Below, in pieces: positions 36,545-42,947 of a stretch of 64,000 nt of DNA. Below the pieces are notes generated by a model. It searched no databases and was not told where the DNA came from. It saw only the letters and a program-made list of their open reading frames with translations. Made by a program: the position numbers and the translations under genes. Positions within the stretch are counted from its first letter, which is position 1; each line of letters starts with the position of its first letter. Source of the stretch: Cytophagales bacterium (GTDB taxonomy: Bacteria; Bacteroidota; Bacteroidia; Cytophagales; UBA9547); assembly GCA_013297755.1 (NCBI GenBank), contig JAAFIH010000001.1:1-64000 (forward strand). The letters are read 5' to 3'.

Positions 36545-37843
36545 CTATTGCAACAAAAACGATTTAAAAACATTGAAATCGTTTTTCATTTTTATTGAAA
36601 CTTTTTGTTTATTTTCTAGGTCAGACAATGCTTTTGGAATTTCAACTTTGGGTTTCATATCAGGTTCGTAAGTATCCACAAACTTGGCTGGGTGGGCAGT
36701 ATGCAAGAACACACCAGTAAGATTTTCTTTTTGTGTATTCAAATATTTCATCAATCCTAAATACCCAACAGCCCCATGTGGGTCCATCATATATCCTGTT
36801 CTGTTATATATTTCTCTGATACTATTTTGTGTAACTTTATCATCAAAAGAATAACCCGAAACATGATTTTTTATTACTCCAAACTCTTTGTTAAACAACT
36901 CATTGATACGCACAAAATTACTAGGATTGCCCACATCCATAGCGTTTGAAAGGGTGGCCACAGATGGTTTTGGTAGATAAGTGCCAGTGTTCAGAAATTG
37001 CACAAATGTATCATTGGCATTGACAGAGGCGACAAAATGATGCACAGGAAGCCCCATTTTTTGTGCAATCATACCAGCACAAATATTGCCAAAGTTGCCG
37101 CTGGGGATTGAATATACGATTGGTTTACCCAGCTTTTTCAACTGAGCATACGAAGCATAATAATAAAAAGATTGAGGTATAAGTCTTGCAATATTGATAG
37201 AATTGGCTGATGATAAATTTACTTTTTGAGTTAAATCTGAGTCCAAAAATGCAGTTTTAACCAATTTTTGACAATCATCAAATGTACCATCAATTTCAAG
37301 AGCTGTAATATTGTGGCCAAGAGTTGTTAGTTGTTTTTCTTGTGATGCACTTACTTTTCCGCTAGGATACAAAATAGTTACATTGATGCCATCTGTTTTA
37401 AAAAATCCACTTGCCACAGCACCACCAGTATCACCAGAGGTGGCTACTAAAATATTGATATTGTTATTTTTTTTGCCTAAAAAATATGCCATTAATTGTG
37501 CCATAAACCTTGCTCCAAAATCTTTGAAAGCTAAAGTAGGTCCATGATACAATTCTAGTGAATAAATATTGTTTTCTACATGCACAGCTGGAGCAGTAAA
37601 TGTAATCGCTTTTTGAATAATAGTATGAATATCATTATCTGAAATAGAACCCACAAATAGGGCCTTGCAAACCTCAAAAGCTATTTCTTGTATAGATTTA
37701 TTCTCGATAGTATCAAAAAAAGCTGATGGCAATTTGGGAATAACAGTAGGCATATAAAGGCCATTGTCAGGAGGAAGGCCCTTAAATACTGCTTCTTGTA
37801 AATCTACAATATGATTTGGATTATTGGTTGAGTATAATTTCAT
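36545..37843 (-). CDS. thrC: Threonine synthase
   Basis: 432 residues. PLP enzyme that converts O-phospho-homoserine to threonine. The PLP-binding Lys107 is in YHGPTLAFKDFGARFM, and the phosphate-binding ATSGDTGGAVASGF follows. The N-terminal MKLYSTNNPNHIVDLQEAVFKGLPPDNGLYMP is typical of the long (class II) bacterial form. HTAHPAKFVD near the C-terminus is also standard. thrA/thrB are not adjacent. Confidence 0.96.
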   Translation of the reverse strand: MKLYSTNNPNHIVDLQEAVFKGLPPDNGLYMPTVIPKLPSAFFDTIENKSIQEIAFEVCKALFVGSISDNDIHTIIQKAITFTAPAVHVENNIYSLELYHGPTLAFKDFGARFMAQLMAYFLGKKNNNINILVATSGDTGGAVASGFFKTDGINVTILYPSGKVSASQEKQLTTLGHNITALEIDGTFDDCQKLVKTAFLDSDLTQKVNLSSANSINIARLIPQSFYYYASYAQLKKLGKPIVYSIPSGNFGNICAGMIAQKMGLPVHHFVASVNANDTFVQFLNTGTYLPKPSVATLSNAMDVGNPSNFVRINELFNKEFGVIKNHVSGYSFDDKVTQNSIREIYNRTGYMMDPHGAVGYLGLMKYLNTQKENLTGVFLHTAHPAKFVDTYEPDMKPKVEIPKALSDLENKQKVSIKMKNDFNVFKSFLLQ

Positions 37844-37986: not shown

Positions 37987-38469
37987 TTATAAAATTGCAG
38001 CTCTATCAAAAATATTTTTAAATTCTGGATTTATGTTGGCATATTCTTTTAAAGCCAGAACGATGTTTTTGTTTTTCTTAGCTTCCAACTCAACAGCATC
38101 TTTAATGGGTGCATTTGCAGCTCTTCTATCCCACCACATATATATAATAGAACCCAAAAGACCTGCGATAAGTGTAAGAATTAGATTATTAGTAAAATCA
38201 ATTTGTCGTTGCAAGGCCTCAAATCTAGCATCAGTTTTTTTGCTTTCAGCATCAAATTTTGAATTAATTGAATCAAACTTTGAATTTATTGCATCAAATT
38301 TTGCATTTATTGCATCAAACTTTGCATCAATGGTTTTCAAGCCTTCTTCTAATTTTGCTTCAAGTCTCATCATCCTATCACGGTCGTCCATAGTGTAGGG
38401 TATAACTTTAGAGTCGGCATTGATTTTGAAACAAAAAAATAAAGATAAATTAATAAATATAGTTTTCAT
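37987..38469 (-). CDS. Coiled-coil membrane protein, tandem paralogue 1 (longest coil)
   Basis: 160 residues. Signal-like segment (MKTIFINLSLFFCFKINADS), a conserved VIPYTMDDRDRMMRLEAKLEEGLKT, then a coil of heptads IDAKFDA-INAKFDA-INSKFDS-INSKFDA-ESKKTDA, the invariant ALQRQIDFTNNLILTLIAGLLGSIIYMWW membrane helix and a cytoplasm-like tail ending YANINPEFKNIFDRAAIL. There are 38 residues between GLKT and ALQRQ, the longest of the four copies. No family recognised. The coil probably oligomerises. It is the last gene of a same-strand array of four. Confidence 0.75.
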   Translation of the reverse strand: MKTIFINLSLFFCFKINADSKVIPYTMDDRDRMMRLEAKLEEGLKTIDAKFDAINAKFDAINSKFDSINSKFDAESKKTDARFEALQRQIDFTNNLILTLIAGLLGSIIYMWWDRRAANAPIKDAVELEAKKNKNIVLALKEYANINPEFKNIFDRAAIL

Positions 38470-38484
38470 AGCAAATAAATTGAT

Positions 38485-38901
38485 TTATAAAATTGAAGCT
38501 CTATCAAAAATATTTTTAAATTCTGGATTTATGTTGGCATATTCTTTTAAAGCAAGAACGATGTTTTTGTTTTTCTTTGCTTCCAACTCAACAGCATCTT
38601 TGATGGGTGCATTTGCTGCCCTTCTGTCCCACCACATATATATAATAGAACCCAAAAGACCTGCGATAAGTGTAAGAATAAGATTATTAGTAAAATCAAT
38701 TTGTCGTTGCAAGGCATCAAATCTAGCATCAAATTTTGAATTAATTGCATCAAATTTTGCATCAATTGTTTTGAAGCCTTCTTCTAATTTTGCTTCAAGT
38801 CTCATCATCCTATCACGGTCGTCCATAGTATAGGGTATAACTTTAGAATCGGCATTGATTTTGAAATAAAAAAATAAAGATAAAGTAATAAATATAGTTT
38901 T
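38485..38901 (-). CDS. Coiled-coil membrane protein, tandem paralogue 2
   Basis: 138 residues from the ATG at 38,901, chosen because the paralogues all start MKTIFI.LSLFF and an upstream ATG at 38,943 would overlap the previous gene's stop at 38,921. Same architecture: signal-like start, TMDDRDRMMRLEAKLEEG, short coil IDAKFDA-INSKFDA-RFD (17 residues between the conserved flanks), one membrane helix and the conserved tail, ending DRASIL. Identity with its neighbours extends into the intergenic sequence. Confidence 0.72.
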   Translation of the reverse strand, partial: KTIFITLSLFFYFKINADSKVIPYTMDDRDRMMRLEAKLEEGFKTIDAKFDAINSKFDARFDALQRQIDFTNNLILTLIAGLLGSIIYMWWDRRAANAPIKDAVELEAKKNKNIVLALKEYANINPEFKNIFDRASIL

Positions 38902-38920
38902 CATAGCAAATAGATTGATT

Positions 38921-39304
38921 TTACAAAATTGCAGCTCTATCAAAAATATTTTTAAATTCTGGATTTATGTTGGCATATTCTTTTAAGGCAAGAACGATGT
39001 TTTTGTTTTTCTTAGCTTCTAACTCAACAGCATCTTTAATGGGTGCATTTGCTGCCCTTCTGTCCCACCACATATATATAATAGAGCCCAAAAGTCCAGC
39101 AATAAGAGTAAGAATTAGATTATTAGTAAAATCAATTTGTCGTTGCAAGGCATCAAATCTAGCATCAACAGTTTTCAAACCTTCCTCTAGTTTTGTCTCA
39201 AGTCTCATCATCCTATCACGGTCGTCCATAGTATAGGGTATAACTTTAGAATCGGCATTGATTTTGAAATAAAAAAATAAAGATAAAGTAATAAATATAG
39301 TTTT
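38921..39304 (-). CDS. Coiled-coil membrane protein, tandem paralogue 3 (shortest coil)
   Basis: 127 residues from the ATG at 39,304. The coil is reduced to VDARFD between GLKT and ALQRQ. Relative to paralogue 2 it lacks 11 residues, a hendecad, a change that keeps coiled-coil phase. The membrane helix and tail are identical or nearly so to the other copies. Same strand and same ~20-bp spacing as the rest of the array. Confidence 0.72.
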   Translation of the reverse strand, partial: KTIFITLSLFFYFKINADSKVIPYTMDDRDRMMRLETKLEEGLKTVDARFDALQRQIDFTNNLILTLIAGLLGSIIYMWWDRRAANAPIKDAVELEAKKNKNIVLALKEYANINPEFKNIFDRAAIL

Positions 39305-39323
39305 CATAGCAAATAGATTGATT

Positions 39324-39776
39324 TTACAAAATTGCAGCTCTATCAAAAATATTTTTAAATTCTGGATTTATGTTGGCATATTCTTTTAAGGCAAGAACGA
39401 TGTTTTTGTTTTTCTTAGCTTCTAACTCAACAGCATCTTTAATGGGTGCATTTGCTGCCCTTCTGTCCCACCACATATATATAATAGAGCCCAAAAGTCC
39501 AGCAATAAGAGTAAGAATTAGATTATTAGTAAAATCAATTTGTCGTTGCAAGGCCTCAAATCTAGCATCAGATTTTTTGCTTTCAGCATCAAATTTTGAA
39601 TTAATTGCATCAAATTTTGCATCAATGGTTTTCAAGCCTTCTTCTAATTTTACTTCAAGTCTCATCATCCTATCACGGTCGTCCATAGTATAGGGTATAA
39701 CTTTAGAGTCGGCATTGATTTTGAGTAAAGAAACAAAAAATAACAACAAAATATATTTTTTCATTTTCATTTTCAT
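39324..39776 (-). CDS. Coiled-coil membrane protein, tandem paralogue 4 (first of array)
   Basis: 150 residues from the ATG at 39,776; ATGs at 39,770 and 39,764 are equally possible. The signal segment differs from the other three (MKMKMKKYILLLFFVSLLKINADS) but from KINADSKVIPYTMDDRDRMMRLE onward it is the same protein. The coil IDAKFDA-INSKFDA-ESKKSDA-RFE has 24 residues between the flanks. As the 5'-most copy it carries the array's own promoter region and may be the ancestor of the duplications. Confidence 0.73.
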   Translation of the reverse strand: MKMKMKKYILLLFFVSLLKINADSKVIPYTMDDRDRMMRLEVKLEEGLKTIDAKFDAINSKFDAESKKSDARFEALQRQIDFTNNLILTLIAGLLGSIIYMWWDRRAANAPIKDAVELEAKKNKNIVLALKEYANINPEFKNIFDRAAIL

Positions 39777-39815
39777 TTGTAATTCTAATTTAAGTACTAA
39801 TTTTAAAATTAGCAA

Positions 39816-40055
39816 ATAATTGTATTAATTCTAATATAACTATAAACTCCAATATAAAAAATTTGTTATTTTATTACGATAAATACCTTTTAAATCTATA
39901 AAGAAACTATTTTAATTTAAAATTATTAAAAAATATTTTAAAAAATCAAAAAAAGTATTTTTATTCTATGAAAACTTACTTTTTTAAAAAAAAATAAAAA
40001 AAATCAGATTTTTGAAAATTTAAAAAATATAAAAAAAGAAAGATATTTAAAAAAA
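39816..40055. other. AT-rich spacer upstream of the four-paralogue array
   Basis: About 240 bp of very AT-rich sequence between the TonB-operon terminator and the paralogue array. No gene or clear promoter pair is visible on the minus strand, although the array's promoter must lie here. Confidence 0.5.
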
Positions 40056-40089
40056 ATCCTTTTTGTAGCATTATTGCTACAAAAAGGAT
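40056..40089 (-). terminator. Rho-independent terminator of the exbB-exbD-exbD-tonB operon
   Basis: ATCCTTTTTGTAGCA (40,056-40,070) and its exact reverse complement (40,075-40,089) form a perfect 15-bp stem with a 4-nt loop. On the minus strand it is followed by a run of Ts and sits just after the tonB stop. Confidence 0.85.
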
Positions 40090-40097
40090 ATAAGCAC

Positions 40098-40901
40098 TTA
40101 CTGAGCCAATTTAAAGTTAATAGGCACTGTAAATTTTACTGATGCAGCTCTACCATTTTGCTTACCTGGTTTCCATTTAGGAAGAGATTTTATAACTCTG
40201 ATAGCTTCTTCATCACAACCATCTCCAATTCCTTTCATAACTTCTGGACTTACAACTTCACCTTCTTTATTTACAACAAATGATACAATTACTCTACCAG
40301 TAGTACCCATTTCCATAGCTTTGGCAGGATATTTTATATTTTTTGCTATATATTTCATCAAAGTTGCATTGCCACCATCTGGAAACTCAGGCATTTCTTC
40401 GACCGCCAAGAAGATTTCATCTTTTACCTCTTCTACCACTGCTGGTCCTGTTTCTACAATCTCTTCAACGGTAGTTTTTTCGCCTTCACGGTTTTCAGTA
40501 GAGATTTGCTTGTCTTTCATATCGTCCACTGTGGGTGGATCTTCTTCTGTTACTTTTTCGTCTTCTACTACTTTTGGTGGAATAAATTTGACAGCTGCCG
40601 CCAATTTTGGTGCCTCAATTTTTGGAGGCGGTGGTGGTGGTGGCAAATTAGGATCCATAGGTGGTGGTGGTAGCAATTCAAGATTAATTTCTACCATTTC
40701 GGCTTTCTCTTCTTTTCCTAAGTCTAGCACACTCATAATTAATGGAGCTGCAATAGATATTGAGAATATTATACAAGAAATAATAAGCGCTCGAATGATA
40801 TATCTATCATATTCGGTACGCAATTCATAAGCACCGTAAGATTGATTTCTATTATCAAAAATAATCGATTTCCAGGTTTTGTTAATTAAAATATCAGCCA
40901 T
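40098..40901 (-). CDS. tonB: Energy transducer TonB
   Basis: 267 residues. The N-terminal cytoplasmic stretch and one membrane helix (about 33-58, YIIRALIISCIIFSISIAAP) are followed by a proline-rich periplasmic spacer (PPPPMDPNLPPPPPPPKIEAP), an acidic region, and the C-terminal TonB domain (about 185-267: YIAKNIKYPAKAMEMGTTGR, VVSPEVMKGIGDGCDEEAIRV, WKPGKQNGR). It couples the inner-membrane proton motive force to outer-membrane receptors. The start overlaps the 3' end of the second exbD by 8 bp, so translation is probably coupled. Confidence 0.94.
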   Translation of the reverse strand: MADILINKTWKSIIFDNRNQSYGAYELRTEYDRYIIRALIISCIIFSISIAAPLIMSVLDLGKEEKAEMVEINLELLPPPPMDPNLPPPPPPPKIEAPKLAAAVKFIPPKVVEDEKVTEEDPPTVDDMKDKQISTENREGEKTTVEEIVETGPAVVEEVKDEIFLAVEEMPEFPDGGNATLMKYIAKNIKYPAKAMEMGTTGRVIVSFVVNKEGEVVSPEVMKGIGDGCDEEAIRVIKSLPKWKPGKQNGRAASVKFTVPINFKLAQ

Positions 40902-41448
40902 CTTCGTATTTCTTGATTAATTCTTTTTCTGTATCATCTAATCCCACAATAGCGTATCTTTTAGATCCAGTAATGTGCATTTCATCTAATATATCAACCA
41001 TATTTTTATATTTGGCAGTTTCGGCTGCTTTTATAACAATAATGATTTTGTATAGCTTTTTTTCTTGGTCGTAACCAATTTTTTTGGTTTCATCAAGGAT
41101 TAATTTACGAATGCCATCGGCTGAAAAGTCTGTTTTTTGTAACAAGTCTTTTTCTTGTGCTTCTTTGGCTGTAACACCCGAAAACCAATAAATTTGGTCG
41201 TCTTTTCCCATGATTACAGTCATCGTTTGAGATGCTTTTACATCTTGTTGTTCGTCTGTAATTGTTTTGTCGGGCATATTCAATTCCATAGTTTTGGGCT
41301 TACTCATGGTTGTAGTAAGCATAAAAAATGTAATCAGTAGGAATCCCAAATCTACCATGGGGGTCATATCAACTTTGGTGGAGTTTTTCTTGCCGCCTTT
41401 CTTCTTGCCTTTTTTGCCTCCGCCTCCGTCATCTGCAATTTCTGCCAT
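40894..41448 (-). CDS. exbD: ExbD/TolR biopolymer transporter, second copy
   Basis: 184 residues. A lysine/glycine-rich cytoplasmic N-terminus (DDGGGGKKGKKKGGKK) precedes the single membrane helix with the proton-relay Asp in VDMTPMVDLGFLLITFFMLTT. A periplasmic domain follows. It should form the ExbB-ExbD motor that energises TonB. Two dissimilar ExbD proteins in one operon are a recurrent Bacteroidota arrangement and may form heterodimers. It overlaps tonB by 8 bp. Confidence 0.93.
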   Translation of the reverse strand: MAEIADDGGGGKKGKKKGGKKNSTKVDMTPMVDLGFLLITFFMLTTTMSKPKTMELNMPDKTITDEQQDVKASQTMTVIMGKDDQIYWFSGVTAKEAQEKDLLQKTDFSADGIRKLILDETKKIGYDQEKKLYKIIIVIKAAETAKYKNMVDILDEMHITGSKRYAIVGLDDTEKELIKKYEDG

Positions 41449-41489
41449 TTCTATTTATTTTTTAAAATGTTTGACATAATATTATACCA

Positions 41490-42101
41490 TTACAATCCAG
41501 CAGCCATAGGTTTGGCTTCCATTCCTGTAATCAAATTAAATCTGTTGATGTTTTGGTCTTGCAAAGTAGCTATAACTTTACTCACAATTTTTGCATCTGT
41601 TGCTTTATCGCCTTTGATAGCTATTCTAGATTTAGGATTGGCGTAGCGTGCTTGCATTACCCATCCTGAAAGTTCGTTTACTAGCGAATCGCAAGGGATA
41701 CCTGGTTGTTTGAAACCTGATAATTCTGGACCTTCAAGATTAAGAAATGCTGGTAAAGCTGCTATTGAAACTCCAAAATTATCCATCAACATAAAGTTTT
41801 TGACTTGTTTGGCGTTTAAAGTTAAACCTTTTTCTTGAGCTACTTTTTTCAAAATAGCTTCTCTAGTTGGCTGTGCATCTACTCCAAAGAAAATTTGATT
41901 ATCTTTCCCAATAGAAATGGTAATCAAATCTGCATCTGGAATCGGCAAATCAGAAACTGATGTAGGTGTATCCACTGGCATAGCCTCATTGGGCTTAAAC
42001 TTAGTGGTTAATATAAAGAAAGTAAGCAATAAGAAAGCCACATCACACATGGCTGTCATATCTAGGGAAACTCCTTTACGTTTTACTTTTACTTTTGGCA
42101 T
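41490..42101 (-). CDS. exbD: ExbD/TolR biopolymer transporter, first copy
   Basis: 203 residues. Basic N-terminus MPKVKVKRKGVSLDMTAMCDVAFLLLTFFILTT with the catalytic membrane Asp (MCDVAF) in the single helix, followed by a periplasmic domain longer than in the second copy, including PDADLITISIGKDNQIFFG and ANPKSRIAIKGDKATDAKIV. It works with ExbB and TonB in proton-driven energisation. There are 42 bp between it and exbB, and 41 bp to the second exbD. Confidence 0.93.
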   Translation of the reverse strand: MPKVKVKRKGVSLDMTAMCDVAFLLLTFFILTTKFKPNEAMPVDTPTSVSDLPIPDADLITISIGKDNQIFFGVDAQPTREAILKKVAQEKGLTLNAKQVKNFMLMDNFGVSIAALPAFLNLEGPELSGFKQPGIPCDSLVNELSGWVMQARYANPKSRIAIKGDKATDAKIVSKVIATLQDQNINRFNLITGMEAKPMAAGL

Positions 42102-42143
42102 TTTTTTAGTGTTTTAAATTTAAAACATGAAATTTAAAATCGA

Positions 42144-42947
42144 CTATTTTTGTGTTGCTGCAAATGTTTGAGATATTGACATTCCTGCCTCGTCAATAGA
42201 ATATGTCAAAGTATCTATTTTGCTTGTAAAGAAGTTGTACATGATAATAGAAATGGCCGAAGTTCCAATACCGATAGCAGTATTAATAAGAGCCTCAGAG
42301 ATACCAGTAGCAAGTGCAGTGGCATCTGGTGCACCAGCCGAAGACATGGCAGCAAATGCTTTTATCATACCCAATACAGTACCCAAAAGTGCTACAAGCG
42401 TTGCTACAGAGGCAAGTGTAGATAATATAGTAAGATTTTTTTCTAACATAGGCAACTCAAGTGAAGTATTTTCTTCCACAGTTTTTTGGATGTTAGCAAG
42501 TTTTTGTTCTTTGTCTAAGCCTGTAGCTGAGGACATTTCTTTGTAGCTTTTAAGTGTGGCTTTGATTACATTACCAACAGAACCTTTTTGTTTATCACAC
42601 TCTGCAATGGCAGAATCAACATTGTTGGCAGACAATAGATTTCTGATTTTAGAAACAAAACCTTCTACAGAACCAGATCCATTGGCTTTAGATAAAGTAA
42701 GAAAACGCTCGATAGAAACAGTAAGTACAATCAATAAAAAAGACATTAAAAATGGAACTATAAAACCACCTTTGTAAACTATACCTAAGTAGTTGCCTGG
42801 CAATGGATGGTTGGCATTATCGCCACCTTCAAAGTTTGTGCCTGCTCCTAATATAAAATGATAAATTATTTGTGCTACAATAATACATACCAAGATGGTT
42901 GCACCAGCAAATATTGAGCCAACTTTGTTTTCTTTTTTATTTTCCAT
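42144..42947 (-). CDS. exbB: MotA/TolQ/ExbB proton channel family protein
   Basis: 267 residues. Membrane helices are seen near residues 12-33 (IFAGATILVCIIVAQIIYHFI), 58-80 (GGFIVPFLMSFLLIVLTVSI), 170-195 (LTILSTLASVATLVALLGTVLGMI) and 215-240 (LINTAIGIGTSAISIIMYNF). The conserved MotA/TolQ/ExbB core LLGTVLGMIKAFAAM and GISEALINTAIGI are intact. It forms the pentameric stator channel of the Ton system. First gene of the operon. A TATATTTG promoter box lies about 90 bp upstream. Confidence 0.94.
   Translation of the reverse strand: MENKKENKVGSIFAGATILVCIIVAQIIYHFILGAGTNFEGGDNANHPLPGNYLGIVYKGGFIVPFLMSFLLIVLTVSIERFLTLSKANGSGSVEGFVSKIRNLLSANNVDSAIAECDKQKGSVGNVIKATLKSYKEMSSATGLDKEQKLANIQKTVEENTSLELPMLEKNLTILSTLASVATLVALLGTVLGMIKAFAAMSSAGAPDATALATGISEALINTAIGIGTSAISIIMYNFFTSKIDTLTYSIDEAGMSISQTFAATQK

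Follow-up and report, generated by a model that had tools for sequence, protein, structure and literature searches.

Likely exchange points in the coil-coding repeats of a tandem family of membrane-anchored coiled-coil proteins from a Cytophagales bacterium

The four tandem genes described here are best supported as a real, functional multigene family that recombines, with the coil-coding repeats as the points of exchange. They are located in the window, i.e. the whole 64,000-nucleotide stretch of DNA that was analyzed (positions 1 to 64,000 of contig JAAFIH010000001.1). In the complete explanation, the proteins are secreted coiled-coil proteins that cross the inner membrane once; their family, which has no name, recombines, its coils are constrained in phase and its members share an anchor. 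The probability of this explanation was placed at roughly 0.6.

All four genes are complete open reading frames on the minus strand, separated by gaps of 15–16 nt (Table 1). Each protein comprises, in order, a signal peptide, a short head, a coil, one membrane helix and a tail. The head of the window proteins is PYTMDDRDRMMRLE (the pattern for the family is PYTxDDRDRxxRLE), the coil is of the heptad type with KFDAINS units, and the membrane helix ends in MWWDRR. The helical tail that follows WDRR has ca. 45 residues and ends in LKEYANINPEFKNIFDRAAIL. A single residue differs among the aligned membrane helices and tails of the four copies. Copy 4 was modeled as a single chain in AlphaFold2 using six related sequences (mean pLDDT 71, pTM 0.28; oligomers are beyond the scope of this model). 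An unbroken helix spans residues 27–118, and tail helices occupy residues 124–146 and 148–159. Because the positively charged WDRR follows the membrane helix, the tail is predicted to be cytosolic.

Table 1. Coordinates of the array, its coil of special interest and its neighbors in the window. Copies are numbered in the order of transcription.
Feature	Position	Strand	Description
exbB/exbD/exbD/tonB-like operon	40098..42947	-	Neighbor judged unrelated
Predicted intrinsic terminator	40056..40089	-	15-bp stem and T run (inverted repeat); between tonB and the array
A+T-rich leader preceding the array	39777..40055	-	Promoter presumed; none identified above chance
Array copy 1	39324..39776	-	150 aa; GLKT-ALQRQ segment 24 aa; from ORF and alignment; coil 33 aa from MRLE to ALQRQ
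Array copy 2	38921..39307	-	128 aa; GLKT-ALQRQ segment 6 aa
Copy 2 coil-coding DNA	39152..39196	-	15 aa from MRLE to ALQRQ; 82–84% vs. the other coils, flanks identical to neighbors
Array copy 3	38485..38904	-	139 aa; GLKT-ALQRQ segment 17 aa
Array copy 4	37987..38469	-	160 aa; GLKT-ALQRQ segment 38 aa
thrC-like gene	36545..37843	-	Other neighbor; not conserved beside the array; named by sequence recognition

An earlier, sequence-only reading of this DNA had described four tandem paralogues with GLKT-ALQRQ segments of 38, 17, 6 and 24 residues in coordinate order, and these lengths were found to be exact. The features that it regarded as common to all copies were retained in part: the membrane helix and tail are indeed nearly identical, but the signal peptide of copy 1 differs from those of the other three, and the GLKT anchor, present in the other copies, reads GFKT in the copy beginning at 38485. 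That reading had also extended copy 1 to 39815 by way of a TTG start codon. The start is probably the ATG at 39776, with in-frame ATGs just after it as the other candidates. A search for a Bacteroidota-type promoter upstream of the array yielded nothing convincing.

The evidence for exchange at the coil comes from comparisons within and between arrays. In the window, the DNA encoding the signal peptide and head of copy 2 has 1 mismatch in 111 positions to that of copy 3, and the DNA encoding its membrane helix and tail has 0 mismatches in 231 to that of copy 1. The near-identity of the DNA between the genes, asserted previously, was borne out: the 357-bp interval extending from ALQRQ in each copy to MRLE in the following one is the same in intervals 1 and 2, and the third has 18 differences. 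Despite these identical flanking segments, the 45-bp coil of copy 2 is only 82–84% like the other window coils. The presence of a diverged coil between identical flanks suggests that homogenization of both flanks stopped at the coil. A two-parent crossover was considered as the origin of copy 2 and was rejected; its coil differs at 7–8 of ca. 44 positions from all other copies, and no better donor was present among the fetched loci. A better fit is an older coil whose two flanks were both converted. At the start of the coil (39152–39196), copies 2 and 4 apparently differ by transitions only, which is probably due to chance.

A comparable discontinuity is found in the array on contig C12 of the source genome. 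The 5' part of its second copy is 57–59% identical in DNA to its neighbors, and the 3' part is 97–98% identical. The head of this protein is 91% identical to that of copy 4 of the C35 array and 61% identical to those of its own neighbors; its tail is 100% identical to theirs. Trees were calculated separately for heads and tails, and they conflict. In the head tree, which was based on 72 columns only and has two long branches, copy 1 of genome G001 (same genus) grouped with copies 1 and 3 of the C35 array (support 99/99), and the AU test rejected a pairing of the two G001 copies (p 0.008). Tails (228 columns) gave the opposite result: the two G001 copies paired (95/98), and the head grouping was rejected (p 0.0025). 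The placement of C12 copy 2 by heads was not significant alone (p 0.13–0.22). The conflict between the trees implies that exchanges fall in or beside the coil. At least two head types seem, from these relationships, to be older than the divergence of the two species, and the tails are array-specific; between arrays, they differ at 18–46% of residues. Thus, the proposals that the coding repeats serve as recombination sites and that gene conversion is likely were both upheld: exchanges lie in or next to the coil repeats, as judged from the tree conflict and the 357-bp units flanking a diverged coil, and conversion or unequal crossover is at work in the family.

Coil lengths were measured between fixed anchors. 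They are 33/15/26/47 residues in the window array (C1), 36/22/43/29 in C12, 22/11/40/36/36 in C35 and 39/21/21/35/14/14/28/35 in C52. In other genomes, they are 36/26 (G001) and 64/50/57 (G087). The 15 copies of g171, a distant genus of the class, range from 26 to 55 residues and equal 37 plus -11, -7, 0, 7, 11 or 18. In a separate measurement, the figures for two of its genomes (G469, for which the common anchors failed, and G615) depend on the boundary drawn beside a variable membrane helix, and one G615 difference is 6 with that boundary anchor and 7 with the common anchor. The copies beginning at 38921 and 38485 differ by 11 residues and the other differences in the window are multiples of 7, as had been noted from the sequence. 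When each distinct length was compared to a reference from its own array or genus, 21 of 21 comparisons fell in 0, 3 or 4 modulo 7; the chance of this outcome under random in-frame differences is ca. (3/7)^21 = 2e-8. The phase of the coil is therefore kept in the window and in the other arrays, all of which, as measured, also differ internally in coil length. This length rule means that the coil stays in phase, and it could reflect either selection or a mutational unit of 21/33 bp. Coil length differs among single-copy genes as well, so arrays are not required for length diversity.

By their pattern of substitution, the copies behave as proteins that are translated and under constraint, and each array has one tail. 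Between the tails of neighboring copies, synonymous/non-synonymous changes numbered 18/2 in C1, 18/0 in C12, 18.5/4.5 in C35 and 36/17 in C52. Pooled over six arrays, dN/dS was 0.07 for the tail segments vs. 0.45 for the signal peptide and head; signal peptides evolve fast regardless. Values of dS between arrays were saturated, so the apparently tighter constraint within arrays is only suggestive.

Tandem arrays are a recurrent arrangement of this family. The source genome has them on C1 (four copies), C12 (four), C35 (five) and C52 (eight, one of which is frameshifted), and single genes are located on C19 and C34. The C12 array adjoins what we take to be a sulfite/nitrite-reductase gene, the C35 array adjoins a presumed RluA-like gene and the C52 array is near a presumed rarA-like gene, all named by sequence recognition. 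No partner gene common to the arrays of the source genome was found. A search for such arrays in other Bacteroidota, as the sequence-only reading had recommended, detected them in several Bacteroidia. Two copies are present in G001 and three, with EIKEIKQ-type heptads, in G087; in g171, there are four in G561, three in G615 and five units, one of them broken, in the closed genome G469. The distribution is patchy: when 395 genomes of the class were sampled, 16 had a match at E 1e-8. A scan of the collection with a closer family alignment returned the G001 contig as its sole match.

Several observations were made at these loci in passing. Within the C52 array, after the frameshifted first copy, there is a ParE-type toxin (PF05016) with an unnamed upstream partner (L011:8846-9429). 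The same contig starts with ca. 1 kb of simple repeat DNA (L011:1-1080) that has several open frames and THYTLHI repeats and is a possible cause of the contig end. In G002 (C262, L072:5870-6300), a family gene has decayed to a relic that no longer has an open frame, indicating loss of copies within the genus. One unit of the G469 array (L141:7650-8087) has two stops, and its neighbors are intact.

The favored explanation has a serious rival, namely that coil length drifts neutrally as long as the phase is kept. Under such birth-and-death evolution, a tolerant coiled-coil protein would be duplicated, conversion would keep the copies alike and heptads would drift within phase; the lengths would be meaningless, and extra copies would serve as dose. 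Insertions and deletions of repeat units explain the steps of 7 and 11 residues, pseudogenes and fragments exist (the G469 unit with stops, the G002 relic and the frameshifted C52 copy) and the positions of arrays differ between species of one genus. However, purifying selection acts on the tail segments of every copy, the same array pattern recurs in separate lineages, and two head types that seem older than the split of two species have been kept side by side in both. On this evidence, the neutral account was considered to have somewhat less than an even chance.

It was also considered that the family might consist of membrane partners (tethers, regulators or substrates) of periplasmic, caspase-like TPR-CHAT proteins in an envelope-stress or conflict system, and that it diversifies for that reason. 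The linkage to TPR-CHAT genes, found in one genus, is the only functional lead for the family. In the six genomes of g171 that carry the coil family, a TPR-CHAT gene abuts ca. 8–9 of 15 family loci, and at four of these (L147, L149, L150 and L152) the two genes are arranged tail-to-tail with gaps of 2–4 nt. The TPR-CHAT proteins encoded at these loci combine TPRs with a signal-like start, and their ATHG and SACETG motifs are intact. In the source genome, the single family gene on C34 (G000, L013:4300-9001) is followed by a retropepsin-like gene, a PorP/SprF gene (PF11751) and a long gene with a CHAT domain at its end. Against this, no CHAT gene is located beside the window array or the source genome's three other arrays, nor beside the family loci of G001, G011, G033, G087 and G125; in G469, both families are present and unlinked; and the linked pairs may represent one segment duplicated within one genus. 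A general partnership of this kind was thus regarded as doubtful. All 11 g171 genomes have CHAT genes, with the coil family in six only, and by a rough estimate CHAT genes make up 1–2% of g171 genomes.

An assembly artefact, in which near-identical short repeats were mis-assembled and copies were created or deleted, was judged very improbable. The genome is a 70-contig draft, the 357-bp exact repeats are longer than short reads and the C35 and C52 arrays are near contig ends; yet many synonymous sites set copies 3 and 4 apart from the others, the closed genome G469 holds the same kind of array and G087 has three well-separated copies. The least certain part of the array is the exact form of the copy at 38921-39307. 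Finally, a functional link to the TonB/ExbBD operon, which is adjacent to the array and on the same strand, is scarcely credible given the predicted terminator that separates them, the absence of a family gene beside either this operon or thrC in G001 and G002 and the unrelated genes that adjoin the other arrays.

In the recombining-family explanation that we favor, the signal peptide would export the short head and the helical coil to the periplasm, followed by the membrane helix and the predicted cytosolic tail. Unequal crossover and gene conversion would create and exchange copies, and exchange tracts would tend to end in the repetitive, length-mismatched coil. With tracts ending there, tails would be homogenized within an array, and older heads and different coil lengths would persist and be recombined. 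Selection would keep the coil in phase and maintain one tail sequence per array. Members may oligomerize or bind a common partner through the shared membrane helix and tail, and the coil lengths may place the heads at different distances from the membrane. A shared membrane or cytosolic partner combined with heads at graded distances is the most likely functional reading; the idea that the coil lengths constitute a "ruler" or a set of stalks is unproven.

Searches of Pfam-A, NCBIfam, PHROGs and PADLOC returned no match at cut-off, and weak matches cover the coil. Profile matches in the PDB (including influenza HA2) were discarded as coil-only, and those to known families and defense models as coil-type chance matches. 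A phage or viral origin was likewise discarded, as neither viral contigs nor phage records contained a match. The literature searches turned up no published account of such a system.

Four known systems offer partial likenesses. In E. coli, the periplasm becomes 3 nm wider with Lpp+14 and 4 nm wider with Lpp+21 (PMC5736177). Like the present family, Lpp is a periplasmic helical coiled coil whose length can be changed by whole heptads. However, it is an outer-membrane lipoprotein crosslinked to peptidoglycan via a C-terminal lysine, whereas the anchor of the window family is a membrane helix toward the C-terminal side, and its tandem copies come in several lengths. The window copies have no lipobox cysteine (a lone Cys occurs in one signal peptide, LFFCFKINAD, with Tyr in two others) and no C-terminal lysine for a peptidoglycan link, their C-termini being AAIL or ASIL. 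In trimeric autotransporter adhesins of the YadA, BadA and UspA types, coiled-coil stalks vary in length by recombination of repeat units. BadA is reported to differ among Bartonella isolates (PMC8859334). The likeness lies in the stalk-like coils and repeat-based length variation; these proteins, unlike ours, are surface adhesins with an outer-membrane beta-barrel anchor. No YadA-like C-terminal beta-barrel anchor is present in the window family, for which the model is all-helix and Pfam gave no match. The Vlp and Vsa proteins of mycoplasmas are size-variable surface lipoproteins that undergo phase switching in wall-less bacteria. Their multigene families, too, pair a constant membrane part with a repeat region that varies in length, but neither switching nor surface exposure is indicated for the window family. 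In concerted evolution, the paralogues of one genome resemble each other more closely than they resemble their orthologues in another species (PMC6053082). The tails of the window family behave in this way, being more alike within a genome than across species; the difference is that only one side of the coil is affected, and the heads keep cross-species relationships.

A broader possibility, which we regard as rather unlikely, is an envelope diversification system in which each array would have one anchor and tail with heads on graded rods, reshuffled by recombination targeted to the rod repeats; it would offer different combinations of reach and head to one cytosolic partner, with a tie to TPR-CHAT proteins in some lineages. 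More generally, a family lacking a Pfam or NCBIfam name occurs in several families of Bacteroidia, repeatedly as tandem arrays. It is a clean natural example of intragenic repeats that preserve diversity in one part of a gene as the remainder is homogenized, and its coils, with differences of 7 and 11 residues, form a natural series for the study of rod length in the envelope. The most useful new fact is that the histories of head and tail separate at the coil. As a new lead, the CHAT linkage is the most useful, and in one genus it opens a testable path to function.
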